A stretch of DNA of 33,511 nucleotides from contig JANXWR010000591.1 of the NCBI GenBank assembly GCA_025351025.1, positions 1-33,511 on the forward strand. The letters are read 5' to 3'. This stretch comes from Burkholderiales bacterium (GTDB lineage: Bacteria > Pseudomonadota > Gammaproteobacteria > Burkholderiales > Burkholderiaceae_C). A program made the translations under genes and the position numbers. The notes beneath the pieces were generated by a model. It was given only the letters and a program-made list of their open reading frames with translations. It ran no database searches and was not told the DNA's origin. Below, piece by piece: positions 2,147 to 10,421 of this stretch (position 1 is its first letter; every line of letters starts with the position of its first letter).

Positions 2147-2530
2147 ATGCGTCATGTCCCCCTTGCCGTCCTGATCGCACTGTCCCTGTCCGGCTCGGTG
2201 CTCGCCAAGCTTCCGGCGCTCTCCGACGAGGCGAAGGCCAAGGCGGCCGAGGTGGCCGCGAAGTCCGCATGGTCCGACAAGGTCGGCGCCTACAAGCTCT
2301 GCCAGGCGATGGATCGGGTCGCCGACGGCTATCGCAAGGAGGCGAAGGCCACGGGCAAGGAGCCGTCCGCGCCGGTGGCCACTCCAGGCTGCGCCGACCC
2401 GGGCCCGTTCGCGATCACGCCGGCGGCGGCCAAGCCCATCGAGGCCTCGGGCGCGCACTCGCCTTCCGGCATGGCGGTGGGCCCGCCGAGCACCAACGCG
2501 ACATCGACGCAGATCTCGCCGAAGAAATAG
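2147..2530 (+). CDS. Hypothetical secreted protein of formate dehydrogenase cluster
   Basis: 127 aa; N-terminal signal peptide (MRHVPLAVLIALSLSGSVLA); same strand, short gap after cytochrome b gene; Pro/Ala/Ser-rich C-terminus. Confidence 0.65.
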   Translation: MRHVPLAVLIALSLSGSVLAKLPALSDEAKAKAAEVAAKSAWSDKVGAYKLCQAMDRVADGYRKEAKATGKEPSAPVATPGCADPGPFAITPAAAKPIEASGAHSPSGMAVGPPSTNATSTQISPKK

Positions 2531-2591: not shown

Positions 2592-3434
2592 ATGAAGCCT
2601 ACGCTGCGTCTCACTTCGGCCAGCGCGCCACTCACCCACGAGATCAGCGCCCGCGACGAGTTCGGCGCGACGCGCCGGATCTCGATCCCCGCCGAGCGCG
2701 CGCTGACCGTGTTCGTCGACAAGCGCGAGCTCGTGACGCTGATGACGCTGGGCGCCGCGCCCGAGCTGCTCGTGCTCGGCTACCTGCGCAACCAGCGGCT
2801 GGTCGACTCGGTCGACGATGTCGATTCGATCACCGTCGCCTGGGACGTCGCGGCCGCTGCCGTCAAGACGCGAGCCGGCATCGAGCGCTTCGACGAGAAG
2901 ACGGCCAAGCGCGTCGTCACGACCGGCTGCGGCCAGGGCACGGTCTTCGGCGACATGATGAGCGACCTCGGCTCGATCCGCCTGCCCGACCCGGGCGACC
3001 CCGCCGCGCGCATCAGCCAGCGTACGCTGTACGGGCTGCTCAATGCGATGCGGCTCCAGGAGAGCACCTACAAGTCGGCGGGCTCGGTGCACGGCTGCGC
3101 CTTGTTCCGCCAGGACGAGCTGCTCACCTTCGTCGAGGATGTAGGCCGGCACAACGCGATCGACACCATCGCCGGCTGGATGTGGCTGAACGACGTCGCA
3201 GGCAGCGACAAGATCTTCTACACGACAGGCCGGCTGACGAGCGAGATGGTGATCAAGGCGGCGCAGATGGGCGTGCCGGTGATCGTGTCGCGCAGCGGCG
3301 CCACGCAGATGGGCCACGAGTTGGCCGAGCGCCTCGGCCTCACGTTGTTCGGCCGGGCGATGAATCGCCACTTCATCTGCTATTGCGGCTTCGACCGCTT
3401 CGACGCCGAGCCGGAGCGGCCGCGCCCCGCCTGA
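2592..3434 (+). CDS. fdhD: Formate dehydrogenase accessory protein FdhD (copy 1, stand-alone)
   Basis: 280 aa; SVHGCALF, EDVGRHNAIDTIAGW, YTTGRLTSEMVIKAAQMGVPVIVSRSGATQMGHELAERLGLTLFGRA. CxxC site reads TTGCGQGT, with one Cys only. Confidence 0.93.
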   Translation: MKPTLRLTSASAPLTHEISARDEFGATRRISIPAERALTVFVDKRELVTLMTLGAAPELLVLGYLRNQRLVDSVDDVDSITVAWDVAAAAVKTRAGIERFDEKTAKRVVTTGCGQGTVFGDMMSDLGSIRLPDPGDPAARISQRTLYGLLNAMRLQESTYKSAGSVHGCALFRQDELLTFVEDVGRHNAIDTIAGWMWLNDVAGSDKIFYTTGRLTSEMVIKAAQMGVPVIVSRSGATQMGHELAERLGLTLFGRAMNRHFICYCGFDRFDAEPERPRPA

Positions 3435-3456: not shown

Positions 3457-4749
3457 TCAGCCCAGGCCGTCGAACATCAGCACGTCGACGAGATCGCCGG
3501 CGGCGACGTTGCCCTGCTCGTGGCCGAGCACGACCAGGCCGTTCGCTTTGCTCATGCTGCTCAGGATGCCCGAGCCCTGGGCGCCGCTGAGCCGGACCTG
3601 CAGGCCGCCTTCGGCGGTGCGCTCGACGAAGCCGCGCTGGTACTCGGTGCGCCCCGGCTTCTTGCGCACGGCGTCGACGCTGGCGGCGCGAAGCGCGAGC
3701 GTCGGCGTCGCCGTGGCGCCGCTCATCGCGAGCAGGGCGTCGCGTACCAGCGCATAGAAGGTGACCATCACCGCGACCGGATTGCCCGGCAAGCCGAAGG
3801 CGATGACGCTGCGCCCGGCGCTTTCGATCCGGCCGATCGCCATCGGTCGGCCCGGACGCATGGCGATCCGCCAGAACACCGCGTCGCCCAGGCTGGCCAG
3901 GATCATGCGCGTGTGGTCGGCCTCGCCGACGCTGGCGCCGCCGGTGGTGATGATGGCGTCGGCGGCGCCAGCGGCGCAGCGAAACGCCGCCTCGAGCGCC
4001 TCGGGAACGTCGCGCACCACGCCGAAGTCGAGCACATCGACGCCGAGCCGTTGCAGCATCGCCCAGAGCGTGTAGCGGTTGCTGTCGTAGACCGAGCCCG
4101 GCGTGAGCGCCTCGCCGACCGAACGCAACTCGTCGCCGGTCGAGAAGAAGGCGACGCGCAGGCGCCGGAAGACCGGCACCTCGGCCCGGCCCAGCGAGGC
4201 CAGCACGCCGATGTCGGCCGGGCGAAGCACGCGGCCCGCGCAGAGCGCGGTCGCGCCGCGCGCCAGATCCTCGCCGGCGAGCCGCCGGTTTTCGCCCTGG
4301 CGCACCACGCCCGTCGCAACCGCGATGCGCGTGCCGTCGACGCGAACGAACTCCTGCGGCACGACCGTGTCGAGCCCCGCGGGCATGGTCGCGCCGGTCA
4401 TGATGCGCACGCATTGACCGGGACCCACCGCGCCGGCGATGCCGCCGCCCGCGAAGCCGCTGCCAGCCACCTGGAGCACGGTGTCGCCGCTGGCCGCGAG
4501 GTCGGTGGCGCGCAGGGCGTAGCCGTCCATGGCCGAGTTGTCCTGCCCGGGAACGTCGATCGGCGAGACGATGTCCTCGGCGAGCACGCGGCCGAGCGCC
4601 GAGCGCAGCGCGAGCTTCTCGACCGCCTGCAGGCGCGGCACCAGTCTGTCGAGGAACTCGCGCGCGGTCGCCACCGGCAGCGCCTTCGGGTCGTAGCCGC
4701 CGACGCACGAGCCGATCTCCTGCAGCGAGGCCGCCTTCGGTTCGCTCAC
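3457..4749 (-). CDS. moeA: Molybdopterin molybdenumtransferase MoeA (GTG start)
   Basis: 430 aa; VDVPGQDNSAMDGYALR-type motif, IMTGATMPAGLDTVVPQE, STGDEL, TTGGASVGEADHTR, FGLPGNPVAVMVTF. GTG start at 4749. Confidence 0.95.
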   Translation of the reverse strand: MSEPKAASLQEIGSCVGGYDPKALPVATAREFLDRLVPRLQAVEKLALRSALGRVLAEDIVSPIDVPGQDNSAMDGYALRATDLAASGDTVLQVAGSGFAGGGIAGAVGPGQCVRIMTGATMPAGLDTVVPQEFVRVDGTRIAVATGVVRQGENRRLAGEDLARGATALCAGRVLRPADIGVLASLGRAEVPVFRRLRVAFFSTGDELRSVGEALTPGSVYDSNRYTLWAMLQRLGVDVLDFGVVRDVPEALEAAFRCAAGAADAIITTGGASVGEADHTRMILASLGDAVFWRIAMRPGRPMAIGRIESAGRSVIAFGLPGNPVAVMVTFYALVRDALLAMSGATATPTLALRAASVDAVRKKPGRTEYQRGFVERTAEGGLQVRLSGAQGSGILSSMSKANGLVVLGHEQGNVAAGDLVDVLMFDGLG

Positions 4750-4869: not shown

Positions 4870-5472
4870 TCATGGTCGCTGGAGCTGCTGCAGCTCGTCC
4901 ATGGTGTTGGCATTGGCGAACGCCTCGGCGTTCTCGAAGGCGACCAGACGGGTCGCGTGCAGGGCGGTCCAGCGATCGATCTTGCGCTGCCCGCCGTGAA
5001 TGAAGCGGACCAGGCTTTCCATCAGGGCGGCGCGCATCATGCAGAACACCGGCTGCGCTTGCAGCGTGTCGCCGTCGCGGGTGGCGGCGACGGCGATCTC
5101 GGTGCTCTCGTCGGCGAACGATTCGGCGAGCCGCACGACCAGGTCTTCCGGAAACAGCGGCGAATCGCAGGGCACGACGATCAGGTACGGTGTCTCGCAG
5201 CGCTCGAGACCGGCCAGGAAGCCGGCCAGCGGACCCGGATAGTCGGGCACCGCGTCGGGCCAGACCGGCACGCCCATCGACTCGTAAGCCGCGATGTTGC
5301 GGTTGGCATTGAGGAGGGTCTCGCCGACCTGTGCTTGCAGCCGCAGCAGCGCGTGCATCGCCAGCGGCATGCCGCGGAAGTTCTGCAGGCCTTTGTCGAC
5401 GCCGCCCATGCGGCTGCCCCGCCCGCCGGCGAGGACGAGGCCGGTGATCTGGTCCTTACCGATCCTGGGCAT
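4870..5472 (-). CDS. mobA: Molybdenum cofactor guanylyltransferase MobA
   Basis: [29 protein letters not shown] nucleotidyltransferase signature; [25 protein letters not shown] at 5472; alternative GTG at 5481 overlaps the tupA stop. Confidence 0.95.
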
Positions 5473-5477
5473 CGGGC

Positions 5478-6326
5478 TCACCGGTCCGCGTTCGGGAAGA
5501 ACAACTGCTTGCCGTCGATCCGATACGCGGCGATGCTCGACTGACCCTCGGGGCCGGTCACCCAATCGGAGAAGGCTTGCGCCTCGGCCAGCTTGACATG
5601 CGGATGGCGTGCCGGGTTGACGACGATCACGCCGTACTGGTTGAAGAGGCGCGAGTCGCCTTCGACCAGGATCGCGAGCTTGCCCGGGTTCTTGAACGCC
5701 AGCCAGGTGCCCCGGTCGGTCAGGACATAGGCGTCGCTGCTCGAGGCGATGTTGAGCGCGGGGCCCATGCCGCAGCCGCAGGCTCGATACAGGAAGGTCT
5801 TGCCCGGCGCGTTTGCGGCCGGGTCGTCGATGCCGGCCTCTTTCCAGTAGCGCAGTTCGGCCGCGTGGGTGCCGCTGCGGTCGCCGCGTGAGATGAAGGG
5901 CAGGTTCGAGGCGGCGAGCTTGCGCAGCGCCGCGACGATGTCCCTGCCCCTGGTTGCGGCCGGGTCGGCCGCGGGGCCGACGAGGACGAAGTCGTTGTAC
6001 ATGACCGGACGGCGCGCCAGCCCGAAGCCCTCGGCCACGAATTTCTCCTCGGCAGCCTGGTCGTGTACGAACAGGACGTCGGCATCGCCTCGCCGGCCCA
6101 TGTCAAGCGCCTGGCCGGTGCCCTGCGCGACCACCCGGACGTCGATGCCGCGCGCCTTCTTGAATGCGGGTAGCAGGTGCGCGAACAGGCCCGACTGTTC
6201 GGTGCTGGTCGTCGACGACATGACGATATAGGGACCGGTGGCGGCCGCCGCCGCGCCGAGGGCCGCTGTTGCGGCAGCGAACCCGATCAGGACGCCGCGC
6301 GTGAGCGTACGGACGATGGATCTCAT
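5478..6326 (-). CDS. tupA: Tungstate ABC transporter substrate-binding protein (TupA family)
   Basis: Signal peptide; [87 protein letters not shown]. Confidence 0.92.
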
Positions 6327-7036
6327 GAAGACTCCTCTGAAGGCAGGATCGCGGCCGGATCGCGGCGCAGCGGCAGATCGGCGTGCTCGCCGAAGTAACG
6401 TTCGGTCGGCAGGTCGGCGAGGATTGCGCCGCCGTCGAGGTGGATCACCCGGGTCGCCAGGCGCTTGACTTGGCCGAGGTTGTGCGTGCTCATGACGAGC
6501 GTCATCCCGTCGGCGGCGAAAGCGGCGAGCATAGCCTCGATCTCTTTCTTCGCTGCCGGGTCGAGGTTCGAGGTCGGCTCGTCGAGGAACAGCACGTCGG
6601 GTCGCGCCGCCCAGGCACGAGCCAGCGCCAGCCGCTGCTGCTGCCCGCCGGAGAGGGTGCGCGCCGGCCGCTCGGCCCGGTCGGCGAGGGCGGCGCGATG
6701 CAGCGCCTCGCATGCCCGGCCGGCGCGCTCGGCCTTTGGCACGCCGGCCAGCCAGAGCGCGACGCGCAGGTTGTTCAGGACTGACAGACGCAGCATGAAC
6801 GGGCGCTGGAACACCATCGCCTGGGCCGCGCCGGCTTCGGCGACGCGACGCGAGCCGGTGTGCGGCAGCAGGCCGTGCAGCGCATGGAGCAAAGTCGTTT
6901 TGCCGGCGCCGTTGTTGCCGACCAGCGCGACGAACTCGCCGCGCCCGATCTGCACGTCGACGTCGTTCAGCGCGGCGAGCGCGCCGTAGCACACCGTCAC
7001 GCCGGAGAGGCCGAGGAGCGGCGCCGGCTCACTCAT
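6323..7036 (-). CDS. tupC: Tungstate ABC transporter ATP-binding protein
   Basis: 237 aa; Walker A GNNGAGKTTL, LSGGQQQRLALARA, Walker B VLFLDEPTSNLD; 4-bp overlap with tupA. Confidence 0.92.
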   Translation of the reverse strand: MSEPAPLLGLSGVTVCYGALAALNDVDVQIGRGEFVALVGNNGAGKTTLLHALHGLLPHTGSRRVAEAGAAQAMVFQRPFMLRLSVLNNLRVALWLAGVPKAERAGRACEALHRAALADRAERPARTLSGGQQQRLALARAWAARPDVLFLDEPTSNLDPAAKKEIEAMLAAFAADGMTLVMSTHNLGQVKRLATRVIHLDGGAILADLPTERYFGEHADLPLRRDPAAILPSEESS

Positions 7037-7119
7037 CGCGCCCCCACGCTTGCGGCTGGCGCCGCTGCGCTGCCCCCCGAGGGGGCGTTCGCCCCTTGGG
7101 GCGGCCCGGCGGCGCTCAT
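7037..7119 (-). repeat. Dispersed GC-rich palindromic intergenic repeat between tupB and tupC
   Basis: Minus strand: GCCGGGCCGCCCCAAGGGGCGAACGCCCCCTCGGGGGGCAGCGCAGCGGCGCC...GCAAGCGTGGGGGCGCGATGAGTGAGC. Shares GCCGGGCCGCCCCAAGGG-CGAA with the 14769 copy. Confidence 0.75.
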
Positions 7120-7829
7120 CTGGCGCCGCTCAGCGTCTGCCGCTTCACGCCGGGACTGAGTGCGACGGCGGCGTTGACGATGCCGACCACGACGAGCAGG
7201 ATCAAGCCGAGGGCGAGCGCGAGCGGCAGGTCGCCCTTGCTTGTCTCGAGCGCGATCGTGGTGGTGATGACGCGGGTCAGCCCGTCGATGTTGCCGCCGA
7301 CGATCATCACCGCGCCGACCTCCGAGACGGCGCGGCCGAAGGCGGTGAGCAGCACCGTGACGACCGACCAGCGCTCGTGCACGAGCATGAGGAGGGCGCG
7401 CGTGAGCGGCCCCGCACCCATCGAGCCAAGCTGGTCGCCGCCCTCGCGCAGGCTGTCGGCGACGAGCTGGCGCGACAGCGCGGCGATCACCGGCAGCACC
7501 AGAATGCTCTGGGCGATGACCATCGCCTTCGGCGTGAAAAGGATGCCCCACGAGCCGAGCGGTCCGCTGCGCGAGAGCAGCAGATAGACGACCAGGCCGA
7601 CCACGACCGAAGGCAGGCCGAGCAGCGTGTTCAGCGCCGCCACCAGCACGCGCCGCCCCGGGATGCGCGTGACGGCGAGCCATGCACCACCGGCCAGGCC
7701 GAAGATCGCGCCGATCAGGCATGCCATGCCGCTCACCGAGAGCGACAGGGCGACGATTCGTGCCAGCTGCGGATCGGTGTCGCGCACCAGGGCGATGGCG
7801 GTCGAGAAGCTTTCCGCGAATGCGCTCAT
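7116..7829 (-). CDS. tupB: Tungstate ABC transporter permease
   Basis: 237 aa; multi-TM; LPSVVVGLVVYLLLSRSGPLGSWGILFTPKAMVIAQSILVLPV and AFGRAVSEVGAVMIVGGNI as in Tup/ModB-like permeases. Confidence 0.92.
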   Translation of the reverse strand: MSAFAESFSTAIALVRDTDPQLARIVALSLSVSGMACLIGAIFGLAGGAWLAVTRIPGRRVLVAALNTLLGLPSVVVGLVVYLLLSRSGPLGSWGILFTPKAMVIAQSILVLPVIAALSRQLVADSLREGGDQLGSMGAGPLTRALLMLVHERWSVVTVLLTAFGRAVSEVGAVMIVGGNIDGLTRVITTTIALETSKGDLPLALALGLILLVVVGIVNAAVALSPGVKRQTLSGAR

Positions 7830-7874: not shown

Positions 7875-8936
7875 TCACATCGACTCGGCCAGCGGCAGAT
7901 TGAGGAGCAGGTTCTGCGGCTTGAGCTTGAGCGTCTGCGCCTCGGTCATGGCCAGGCCGAGGTAGACCGGCTTGCCGGCGAGGTCGGCGCGCATCGCCTG
8001 CGGATCGTCGAAGTCGAGGCGGAACAGGCCGATCAGGCGAGCCGGATCGGCGGTCTCGGTGCTGCCCTTCAGGTAGAGCTCGTTGAGCAGCGCGGTCGAG
8101 TCGACGTCGAGGCCGATGTGCCAGCGCCACGCCGGGTCGTCGACCCGCGCCTGCGGCTCGATGCGCACGGCGACGCCGAGGAAGTGCCGCACCCACAGCT
8201 CAAGAACGCGGCCGAGCGCTTTTAGGCCCGAGTCGACACGGGCCAGCGTGATCACCAGGCCGTGGCCGAGGTCGCTGCCGAAGGTGTGCGAAAGGTCGAG
8301 CACGAACGCATGGCGTTCGCTCGCCTCGAAAAAGCGCCCAGCCGTGTCGGCATTCAGCACCTCGAGGCCGGGTGCAGCGTCTGCGGCTGGTTGCTGACGC
8401 AGCAGCCGGCCGAGCGGATCGGGCGGGCCGGGGTTGCTCAGGCGGTCGGCGGTGTCGCGGTCGGCGGCGAGCACCCTGCCGTCCTGCAGGGCGATTCGCT
8501 GCGGCCGGAACAGGAGCTCGGCGGCGCGCAGGACGATCGCGTCGTCGCAGCCGTCGACGACGTTGCGCACGATCGCCTCGGCGACGCGGTCGAAGAAGAG
8601 CGGCGGCAGGTCGATCGCGCCGGCGCGAAAGACCGAGAGGTACCAGGCCTCGAGCGTGCCGGCGGCGAGCAGGCCGTCGCGAAAGCGCAGGTAGTGGGCG
8701 TAGTTGTCGCGTGCATCGGGATCGGCGAGGGTCAGCAGATCGAGTGGCGTGACGGGTCGCGAAGGCGCTTCGAGCAGCGTCCGGTGCAGGTGCTGCTCGG
8801 CGTCGCACGATTCCGCGACCAGGGCCAGTTGCGGCAGCCCGAGGAACAGCCGCAGGTAGGCATCGGTCGCTACGAGCCGGCCGTGATCGTCGCGTCGCAG
8901 CTCGCGAAAGCCGCTGCCCGGCCAGATGTCGCGCAT
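7875..8936 (-). CDS. Uncharacterised 353-aa protein upstream of tupB (possibly DUF6352-type; assignment from memory)
   Basis: ATG 8936; MRDIWPGSGFRELRRDDHGRLVATDAYLRLFLGLPQLALV; no enzyme motif recognised; co-directional with tupBCA-mobA-moeA. Confidence 0.8.
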   Translation of the reverse strand: MRDIWPGSGFRELRRDDHGRLVATDAYLRLFLGLPQLALVAESCDAEQHLHRTLLEAPSRPVTPLDLLTLADPDARDNYAHYLRFRDGLLAAGTLEAWYLSVFRAGAIDLPPLFFDRVAEAIVRNVVDGCDDAIVLRAAELLFRPQRIALQDGRVLAADRDTADRLSNPGPPDPLGRLLRQQPAADAAPGLEVLNADTAGRFFEASERHAFVLDLSHTFGSDLGHGLVITLARVDSGLKALGRVLELWVRHFLGVAVRIEPQARVDDPAWRWHIGLDVDSTALLNELYLKGSTETADPARLIGLFRLDFDDPQAMRADLAGKPVYLGLAMTEAQTLKLKPQNLLLNLPLAESM

Positions 8937-9068: not shown

Positions 9069-10421
9069 ATGAACGTCATCGGCCTTTGCGGCTTTTCCGG
9101 TTCCGGCAAGACCACCCTGGCGGAGCAGCTGATCGCGCAGCTTCGCGCGGCCGGGCAGCGCGTCTCGGTCGTCAAGCACGCGCACCACAGCTTCGACATC
9201 GACCACGAAGGCAAGGACTCGTGGCGGCATCGCCGTGCTGGCGCGTCCGAGGTCGTCATCGCTTCCGACCGGCGCCTGGCCAAGATTCGCGAGTTCGACA
9301 CGCTCAGCGACCCCGGTGTGCCCGAGCTGATCGCCGAGCTGGCGCCATGCGACTGGGTGCTGGTCGAGGGCTTCAAGCAGGCCGCCTTGCCCAAGCTCGA
9401 GGTCTGGCGTGCGGCGACCGGCAAGCCGGCACAGTATCCGGCCGACCCACACGTGGTCGCCATCGCCACCGACGACGCCGAGCGCCTGCCGGTGCCGACG
9501 TCCTTGCCGATTCTCGATCTCAACGACGCAGCCGGCATCGTCGCCTTCCTGCTCGCCGACCCGGGTCGCTACTTCTATCGGCCGCCGGGCCAGGTGCCGC
9601 CGTCGGGCCGACCGTCTGCGGGTGTGACGAGCGTCGCCGCGCGCGCCCTGCGCGGCAGCGGCGACGCCGGCGTCGAGGAGCGCGTCGCCGACGAGGTGGC
9701 GATGGCCATCGAGATCGATGGCGCCGGCCGCATCCTGCTGTTCGCGACGCCGACCGACCTCGAGGACATGGTCCTCGGCTACCTGCTCGGCGACGGAATT
9801 GTCGAGAGCGCGAGCGACCTGCTCGGCTTCGAGGCCGTGCCGCACGACGCCGGCTTCGTGCTGCGCGCGCAGCTTCGCCCGGCCTGTGCCGAACGGTTGA
9901 AGCTTCGGCCTCCACGCGTCGATGCGTCTGCGGGCTTCGGTGCAGCCGCGGCGCTGGCGAACGGCGTCAGCCGTGCGGCCTTGCGAGTCACGCCGGTCGA
10001 GATCGATCAAGCGGCACTGGTCGCCGGGATGCGCGCGCTCGCGGCGGGCGGCGGGCTCTGGAAGGCGACCGGCGCGAGCCACGCCGCCGCCTGGATCTCG
10101 CTGGATGGCGAGCTGAAGATAGTGCGCGAGGACGTCGGTCGGCGCAATGCGCTCGACAAGCTGGTCGGCGCGATGGCCCGGGCGGGGATCGATCCGTCGC
10201 GCGGTTTCGCAGCGGTGACGAGCCGCGTCAGTCACGGGATGGTGCGGCAGGCCGCCGCCGCCGGCATCGGCGTGCTCGCCGCGATCTCCGCGCCGACCGG
10301 GCTCGCGATCGGCCTTGCCGAGTCCGCCGGGATCACGCTGGTCGGCTTCGCGCGCGGCGACAGTGCGACGGTTTATGCCGGCGCCGATCGGGTCAGGAAG
10401 GATCCCGGCTTGGCGCGCTGA
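9069..10421 (+). CDS. MobB-FdhD fusion protein (MobB about aa 1-165, FdhD-like about aa 185-450)
   Basis: Single 450-aa ORF. MobB: MNVIGLCGFSGSGKTTLAEQL P-loop, VVKHAHHSFDIDHEGKDSWRHRRAGA, DWVLVEGFKQA. FdhD: TPTDLEDMVLGYLLGDGIVES, TGASHAAAWI, EDVGRRNALDKLVGA, TSRVSHGMVRQAAAAGIGVLAAISAPTGLAIGLAESAGITLVGFARG. Confidence 0.93.
   Translation: MNVIGLCGFSGSGKTTLAEQLIAQLRAAGQRVSVVKHAHHSFDIDHEGKDSWRHRRAGASEVVIASDRRLAKIREFDTLSDPGVPELIAELAPCDWVLVEGFKQAALPKLEVWRAATGKPAQYPADPHVVAIATDDAERLPVPTSLPILDLNDAAGIVAFLLADPGRYFYRPPGQVPPSGRPSAGVTSVAARALRGSGDAGVEERVADEVAMAIEIDGAGRILLFATPTDLEDMVLGYLLGDGIVESASDLLGFEAVPHDAGFVLRAQLRPACAERLKLRPPRVDASAGFGAAAALANGVSRAALRVTPVEIDQAALVAGMRALAAGGGLWKATGASHAAAWISLDGELKIVREDVGRRNALDKLVGAMARAGIDPSRGFAAVTSRVSHGMVRQAAAAGIGVLAAISAPTGLAIGLAESAGITLVGFARGDSATVYAGADRVRKDPGLAR

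Follow-up and report, generated by a model that had tools for sequence, protein, structure and literature searches.

A Burkholderiales lineage of three species has joined MobB and FdhD in one protein, dropped the sulfur-transfer loop of the FdhD half and kept the rest, in a gene cluster that also encodes a separate FdhD with a single loop cysteine. The finding is real, holds at the level of a clade and is evolutionarily informative. Two matters are contested in the maturation of molybdenum and tungsten cofactors, namely the need for the cysteines of FdhD and the job of MobB, and this lineage bears on both.

A MobB-FdhD fusion without the CxxC cysteines

The window (the whole stretch of DNA that was analysed, 33,511 nucleotides) contains the fusion gene mobB::fdhD at positions 9069-10421 of the forward strand, an uninterrupted single ORF of 450 residues. 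Both Pfam domains are essentially full length. MobB (PF03205) matches aa 3-135 at 160 bits (cut-off 26.6; profile positions 1-133 of 133), and FdhD-NarQ (PF02634) matches aa 208-442 at 195 bits (cut-off 27.2; positions 2-236 of 237); TIGR00129 also matches the fusion, with 151 bits for a cut-off of 140.9. The MobB GTPase domain (aa 1-172, 9069-9584, forward strand) carries the P-loop GFSGSGKT at aa 8-15 and matches PDB entries 1p9n and 1np6. Twenty-two of its columns, G13, K14 and T15 included, are invariant in an alignment of 27 sequences that comprises the fusions. A poorly conserved linker follows (about aa 171-205, 9579-9683, forward strand), which is predicted to be disordered, the AlphaFold2 pLDDT being about 26-49 across aa 171-210. 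The FdhD domain, hereafter the tail, spans about aa 206-445 (9684-10403, forward strand) and matches E. coli FdhD (PDB 4pde) with an E-value of 6e-36.

The structure of the FdhD domain was modelled with AlphaFold2 from 18 aligned sequences, giving a mean pLDDT of 86.7 and a pTM of 0.83. The best solved match of this model in Foldseek is 4pde (E-value 9e-23, probability 1.0), and as modelled the tail keeps the FdhD fold. Whole-chain comparison with 4pde gives TM scores of only 0.51-0.55 and an rmsd of 15 Å; the subdomains are thus arranged differently in model and crystal, an arrangement that should not be over-read. In a model of the full-length protein, MobB is predicted with confidence and the linker as disordered. 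The FdhD half comes out poorly because the alignment is thin there; no contacts between the domains can therefore be read from it.

We collected and aligned 72 FdhDs, 69 of them unfused and representing both FdhD types, and three fused. The motif TGCGVCG of E. coli FdhD (4pde) aligns on aa 287-292 of the fusion, which read SAGFGA (nt 9927-9944), and both cysteines are absent. The degenerate catalytic loop around it covers aa 281-292 (9909-9944, forward strand), where relatives read RR..RTGCGLCG. All 47 unfused relatives of the tail's FdhD type have CxxC, mostly as RTGCGLCG, and none of the three fusions does, their loops reading SAGFGAA, SSSFDAV and AAGPDAA. Loss in the fusions against retention in the unfused relatives (47/47 versus 0/3) exceeds what chance would give. 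A substitute cysteine elsewhere in the loop was looked for in the alignment and there is none. Cys273, the sole cysteine of the FdhD half, lies before the loop and is not conserved: it is missing from the orthologue in genome G193, whose tail has no cysteine throughout the FdhD half. The pLDDT of the model falls below 50 at FdhD domain residues 102-107, which correspond to the loop; the equivalent loop is disordered in the crystal of E. coli FdhD (PMC10609526). The original prediction, a 450-residue MobB-FdhD ORF with both CxxC cysteines replaced and the other FdhD motifs kept, is thus borne out, and the other loop cysteine that it had considered does not exist.

The fusion and the loss are shared by three species

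The homologue search suggested with the original prediction shows the fusion in three of six genomes compared from the genus: its own, G496 (L003, 89% identity) and G193 (L004, 73%). They represent three different species; the fusion clade is known from these three genomes, of which the two named ones are MAGs. MobB is unfused in G091 and G495 and was undetected in G494. Outside the genus, no match spanning both domains was present among the matches listed for 251 genomes of the same family and 398 of the phylum.

The genomes with the fusion share one gene order: fdhBC, a small ORF, fdhD1, moeA, mobA, a tup-type transporter, a DUF6352 gene, mobB::fdhD and an Mpo1-like gene. In G091, as well as in the more distant loci L010, L005 and L009, mobB belongs to a very similar cluster and lacks the tail, and the unfused mobB of sister species occupies the syntenic position of the fusion. 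The genome of the window is in 606 contigs and about 81% complete, which might favour an assembly or annotation artefact, but the junction and the cluster order are identical in G496 and G193, and the chance of an artefact is negligible. As both other species lack the loop cysteines, the observation reflects neither an assembly error nor a change in a single strain.

In a maximum-likelihood tree computed with the loop columns excluded, the three tails form one clade (support 100/100), nested among FdhDs with CxxC from the same bacterial family (99/97; 97/92 at the next level). This nesting makes the stem of the fusion clade, a long branch with 0.51 changes per column, the most likely place for the loss of CxxC.

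The tail is under purifying selection outside the loop

All three tails retain 47 of the 58 family-conserved columns outside the loop (0 of 8 within it), and the motifs EDVGR, TGASHAAAW and TSR are intact in each. Two changes outside the loop stand out. Codon 359 (10143-10145, forward strand) encodes Arg, turning EDVGRH into EDVGRR, and codon 394 (10248-10250, forward strand) encodes Gln. These positions are His and Lys, respectively, in 69/69 unfused FdhDs, and R359 and Q394 are found in 3/3 fused tails. Judged from the alignment, the loss of His359 and Lys394 argues for changed chemistry more strongly than the loss of the cysteines alone; if both residues belong to the cofactor pocket, the binding of the cofactor may have changed too.

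Selection was estimated by a pairwise counting method on the three sequences, so that the omega values below concern their divergence from one another and exclude the stem branch. For the FdhD half minus the loop, omega is 0.19-0.37 (95% bootstrap upper bounds 0.32-0.53), and for the 130-residue C-terminal part of the tail 0.17-0.28. The loop region gives 0.43-0.66 with intervals that include 1. Values for the MobB part (0.10-0.27) and for FdhD1 (0.09-0.19), which evolves more slowly than the tail, show that both are under stronger selection than the tail. The tail is thus under purifying selection, while the rate of drift in the loop is not distinguishable from neutral.

A decaying fragment of a gene, captured by readthrough from mobB, could account for a tail that evolves faster than MobB and has lost its loop motif. 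Three lineages separated by a dS of about 0.35-0.6 have nevertheless kept its frame open for about 250 codons, and the low omega outside the loop, with upper bounds below 0.55, is at odds with the elevated dN/dS that the original prediction had associated with decay. This explanation is largely refuted and very improbable: purifying selection preserves the fold and the other FdhD motifs, and simple decay does not describe the domain.

Selection weaker than that on FdhD1 and the alteration of two family-invariant residues outside the loop could also fit a structural or regulatory addition, serving dimerisation, stabilisation of MobB or docking and handling no cofactor. FdhD is a dimer (PMC10609526), and the tail could in this way provide oligomer contacts to MobB. 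The retention of EDVGR, TGASHAAAW, TSR and most conserved columns seemingly goes beyond the needs of a mere scaffold, however, and we regard this explanation as unlikely. The kept motifs suggest that the tail may bind bis-MGD or GDP.

A second FdhD in the cluster and the need for the cysteines

The window encodes a second, unfused FdhD, FdhD1 (2592-3434, forward strand; PF02634, 254 bits), with one loop cysteine (TTGCGQG). It represents an FdhD type distant from that of the tail and is present in 6/6 genomes of the genus. Apart from the tail, no further FdhD was detected in the assembly of the window (about 81% complete, 606 contigs), where a third copy may have been missed. The original prediction had overlooked this gene and also the replacement of His359 and Lys394. 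FdhD1 apparently suffices in sister species with the same two formate dehydrogenase (FDH) types, and the tail is thus dispensable within the genus.

Formate dehydrogenases remain active, with a sulfurated cofactor, in the presence of the variants C121A/C124A of E. coli FdhD and C104A/C107A of R. capsulatus FdsC (PMC6239281, PMC10609526), and FdhD cysteine variants retain binding and transfer of bis-MGD (PMC6239281). For FdhD and FdsC alike, the cysteines are reported to be dispensable both for bis-MGD binding and for FDH activity (PMC6239281, PMC10609526). FdhDs naturally devoid of loop cysteines are known in group III and in Methanococcus maripaludis (PMC6239281, PMC10609526). The missing CxxC is therefore mostly unsurprising, and the argument from absent cysteines to absent sulfur is weakened. 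By analogy with these Cys-less FdhDs, which can support active FDHs, loss of the sulfur step in the tail is not proven. They also lend some credit to a tail that is a full FdhD, which binds bis-MGD and helps to sulfurate it without cysteines of its own, the sulfur coming directly from a desulfurase or from another carrier. Such a function is harder to reconcile with the loss of His359 and Lys394, both of which are present even in the one-Cys FdhD type, with the near-neutral drift of the loop and with the Cys-bearing FdhD encoded in the same cluster; we consider it improbable.

The tail resembles the group I FdhD and FdsC proteins in its full-length fold and motifs, and it is most closely related to CxxC FdhDs from its own bacterial family. 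It differs from them in lacking CxxC, in the replacement of the His and Lys invariants and in its position behind MobB. Like the FdhDs of group III and M. maripaludis, it has no loop cysteine and keeps the remaining fold; unlike them, it is fused to MobB, a fusion not reported for those proteins, its loss appears to have arisen within a CxxC lineage on the fusion stem, and its cluster also holds a Cys-bearing FdhD. MobB is coupled to other late cofactor-assembly proteins in the fusions catalogued in NCBIfam (MobB-MoeA PRK14491, MobA-MobB PRK14489, MobB-FeS and others), but the partner here is FdhD, and no NCBIfam model for MobB-FdhD was among the matches of the fusion. A paper on both proteins that was examined in detail describes no MobB-FdhD fusion.

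An independent fusion in Haematobacter retains CxxC

Plasmid pOT1-3 of Haematobacter massiliensis encodes another MobB-FdhD fusion, WP_131389795.1 (L214 4001-5341), which is annotated only as FdhD. Its existence rejects the idea that the architecture is unique to the Burkholderiales lineage. The domain order, MobB then FdhD, is the same, and the gene is flanked by mobA and moeA within an operon of FDH genes. In contrast to the tail, its FdhD half retains CxxC (MGCGLCG) and EDVGRH and groups with alphaproteobacterial FdhDs. A common origin of the two fusions was rejected by the AU test (p = 9e-5, obtained after dropping the Alloyangia row, which is of the other FdhD type; with this very long branch included, the value was 0.067). 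Phylogeny thus indicates that the MobB-FdhD architecture arose at least twice, and an independent second origin supports a functional partnership of MobB and FdhD. The sulfur loop was lost only in the lineage with another FdhD beside the fusion, in a single comparison that covers, on the Haematobacter side, the plasmid alone. With the CxxC-keeping Haematobacter fusion as a matched control, the lineage offers a natural separation-of-function system for cofactor binding and sulfuration.

The fusion lies in a formate dehydrogenase and cofactor cluster

Upstream of fdhD1, the forward strand encodes the FDH FeS subunit FdhB (108-740; Pfam Fer4 families) and the cytochrome b gamma subunit FdhC (974-2125; TIGR01583, 158 bits, above the cut-off). 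The genes that follow fdhD1 are on the reverse strand: the metal insertase gene moeA (3457-4749; PRK10680 MoeA, 534 bits, above the cut-off), the guanylyltransferase gene mobA (4870-5565; TIGR02665, 213 bits, above the cut-off) and three genes of a tungstate-type ABC transporter. The tupA-like periplasmic binding protein (5478-6320, start approximate) was named by sequence reading, from an ORF located between mobA and the ABC genes and from synteny. The tupC-like ATPase (6323-7036) has generic ABC ATPase matches and is assigned by synteny. For the tupB-like permease (7116-7829), TupB is the best metal-specific model, although its 149 bits fail the equivalog cut-off of 320 bits; ModB gives 66 bits.

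The clustering of moeA, mobB and a tup-type transporter with FDH genes, established from gene order and synteny, is also found in the W-specific clusters of M. extorquens. There, the tungsten FDH depends on MobB, MoeA1 and FdhD, and two-hybrid assays give a signal for FdhD with MobB, MobA and MoeA1 (PMC13197769). In this moeA1-mobB-tupBCA pathway (PMC13197769) FdhD is a separate protein. A tungsten role for the window's cluster is plausible, its tungsten dependence being inferred. The host group has an FDH alpha subunit resembling that of the tungsten CO2-reducing enzyme MeFDH1: the alpha subunit of the genus, read in G494, is by a wide margin closest to MeFDH1 (7vw6, 950 bits, versus 487 for 6tg9, the next FDH). 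The periplasmic FdhA, as read in G193, is similar to 9vap. No correlation was found between the fusion and a particular FDH, periplasmic FdhA and MeFDH1-like types both occurring in genomes with and without it.

Proposed role of the tail

From the fusion, the shared loss, its CxxC ancestry, the selection pattern and the co-located FdhD1, we infer cofactor binding, hand-over and a division of labour as follows. In the common ancestor of the three species, a group I type FdhD would have become attached to the C-terminal end of MobB, within a conserved cluster for FDH and W/Mo cofactor maturation. Around or after the fusion, the sulfur-transfer loop would have been freed from selection, losing both cysteines and the RTG..G frame, and His359 and Lys394 would have been lost as well, with constraint persisting on the fold and on most positions conserved in the family. 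The tail would most likely bind the guanine-dinucleotide cofactor or dock on its client. In this way MobB, MoeA and MobA would be brought to apo-formate dehydrogenase, or to FdhD1, so that the cofactor could be passed on without diffusing. Terminal sulfuration would be left to the Cys-bearing FdhD1. We give an even chance to this reading, in which the tail of MobB holds the cofactor or serves for docking and FdhD1 does the sulfuration. A more specific form, in which holding bis-MGD and sulfurating it, two jobs that a single FdhD normally performs, are split, the MobB tail receiving the (tungsten) cofactor directly from MoeA, MobA and MobB and presenting it and FdhD1 supplying the sulfur, so that the fusion physically bridges cofactor assembly and enzyme loading, is tentative but deserves serious consideration. 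The scaffold or hand-over role that the original prediction had proposed fits the neighbourhood and the MobB-FdhD interaction reported in M. extorquens (PMC13197769); its premise that a domain without cysteines performs no sulfur step is not established, given the activity obtained with Cys-to-Ala variants.

Other features of the cluster and related loci

The DUF6352 gene (7875-8936, reverse strand; PF19879, 172 bits) is conserved beside mobB, to which it is divergent. This divergent arrangement recurs in nine related loci. Within the genus, DUF6352 is present in all five genomes with MobB and absent from G494, which lacks MobB; its product is a candidate factor of cofactor maturation. A small uncharacterised ORF (2147-2530, forward strand) between fdhC and fdhD1 occurs in all genomes of the genus with 54-84% identity, and is possibly a maturation or subunit gene.

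In the genome of the window, the N-terminal part of the periplasmic FdhA is found at the end of contig C308 (L189, L196), which probably adjoins the left end of the window. Parts of MeFDH1-like alpha subunits that overlap in sequence lie on C308 and C252 (L206) and may represent two copies or contamination.

The cluster varies among relatives. In G193, tupC and mobA are 21 bases apart (L150 13770-13791), with no tupA-like gene at that spot. The cluster of G494 (L153) has no match to moeA, mobB, DUF6352 or tupA-like genes and retains tupB, tupC, mobA, fdhD1 and fdhBC. In Methylibium sp. NZG (L007 8001-9831), a second moeA-like gene, 40% identical to the moeA of the window, directly follows mobB.
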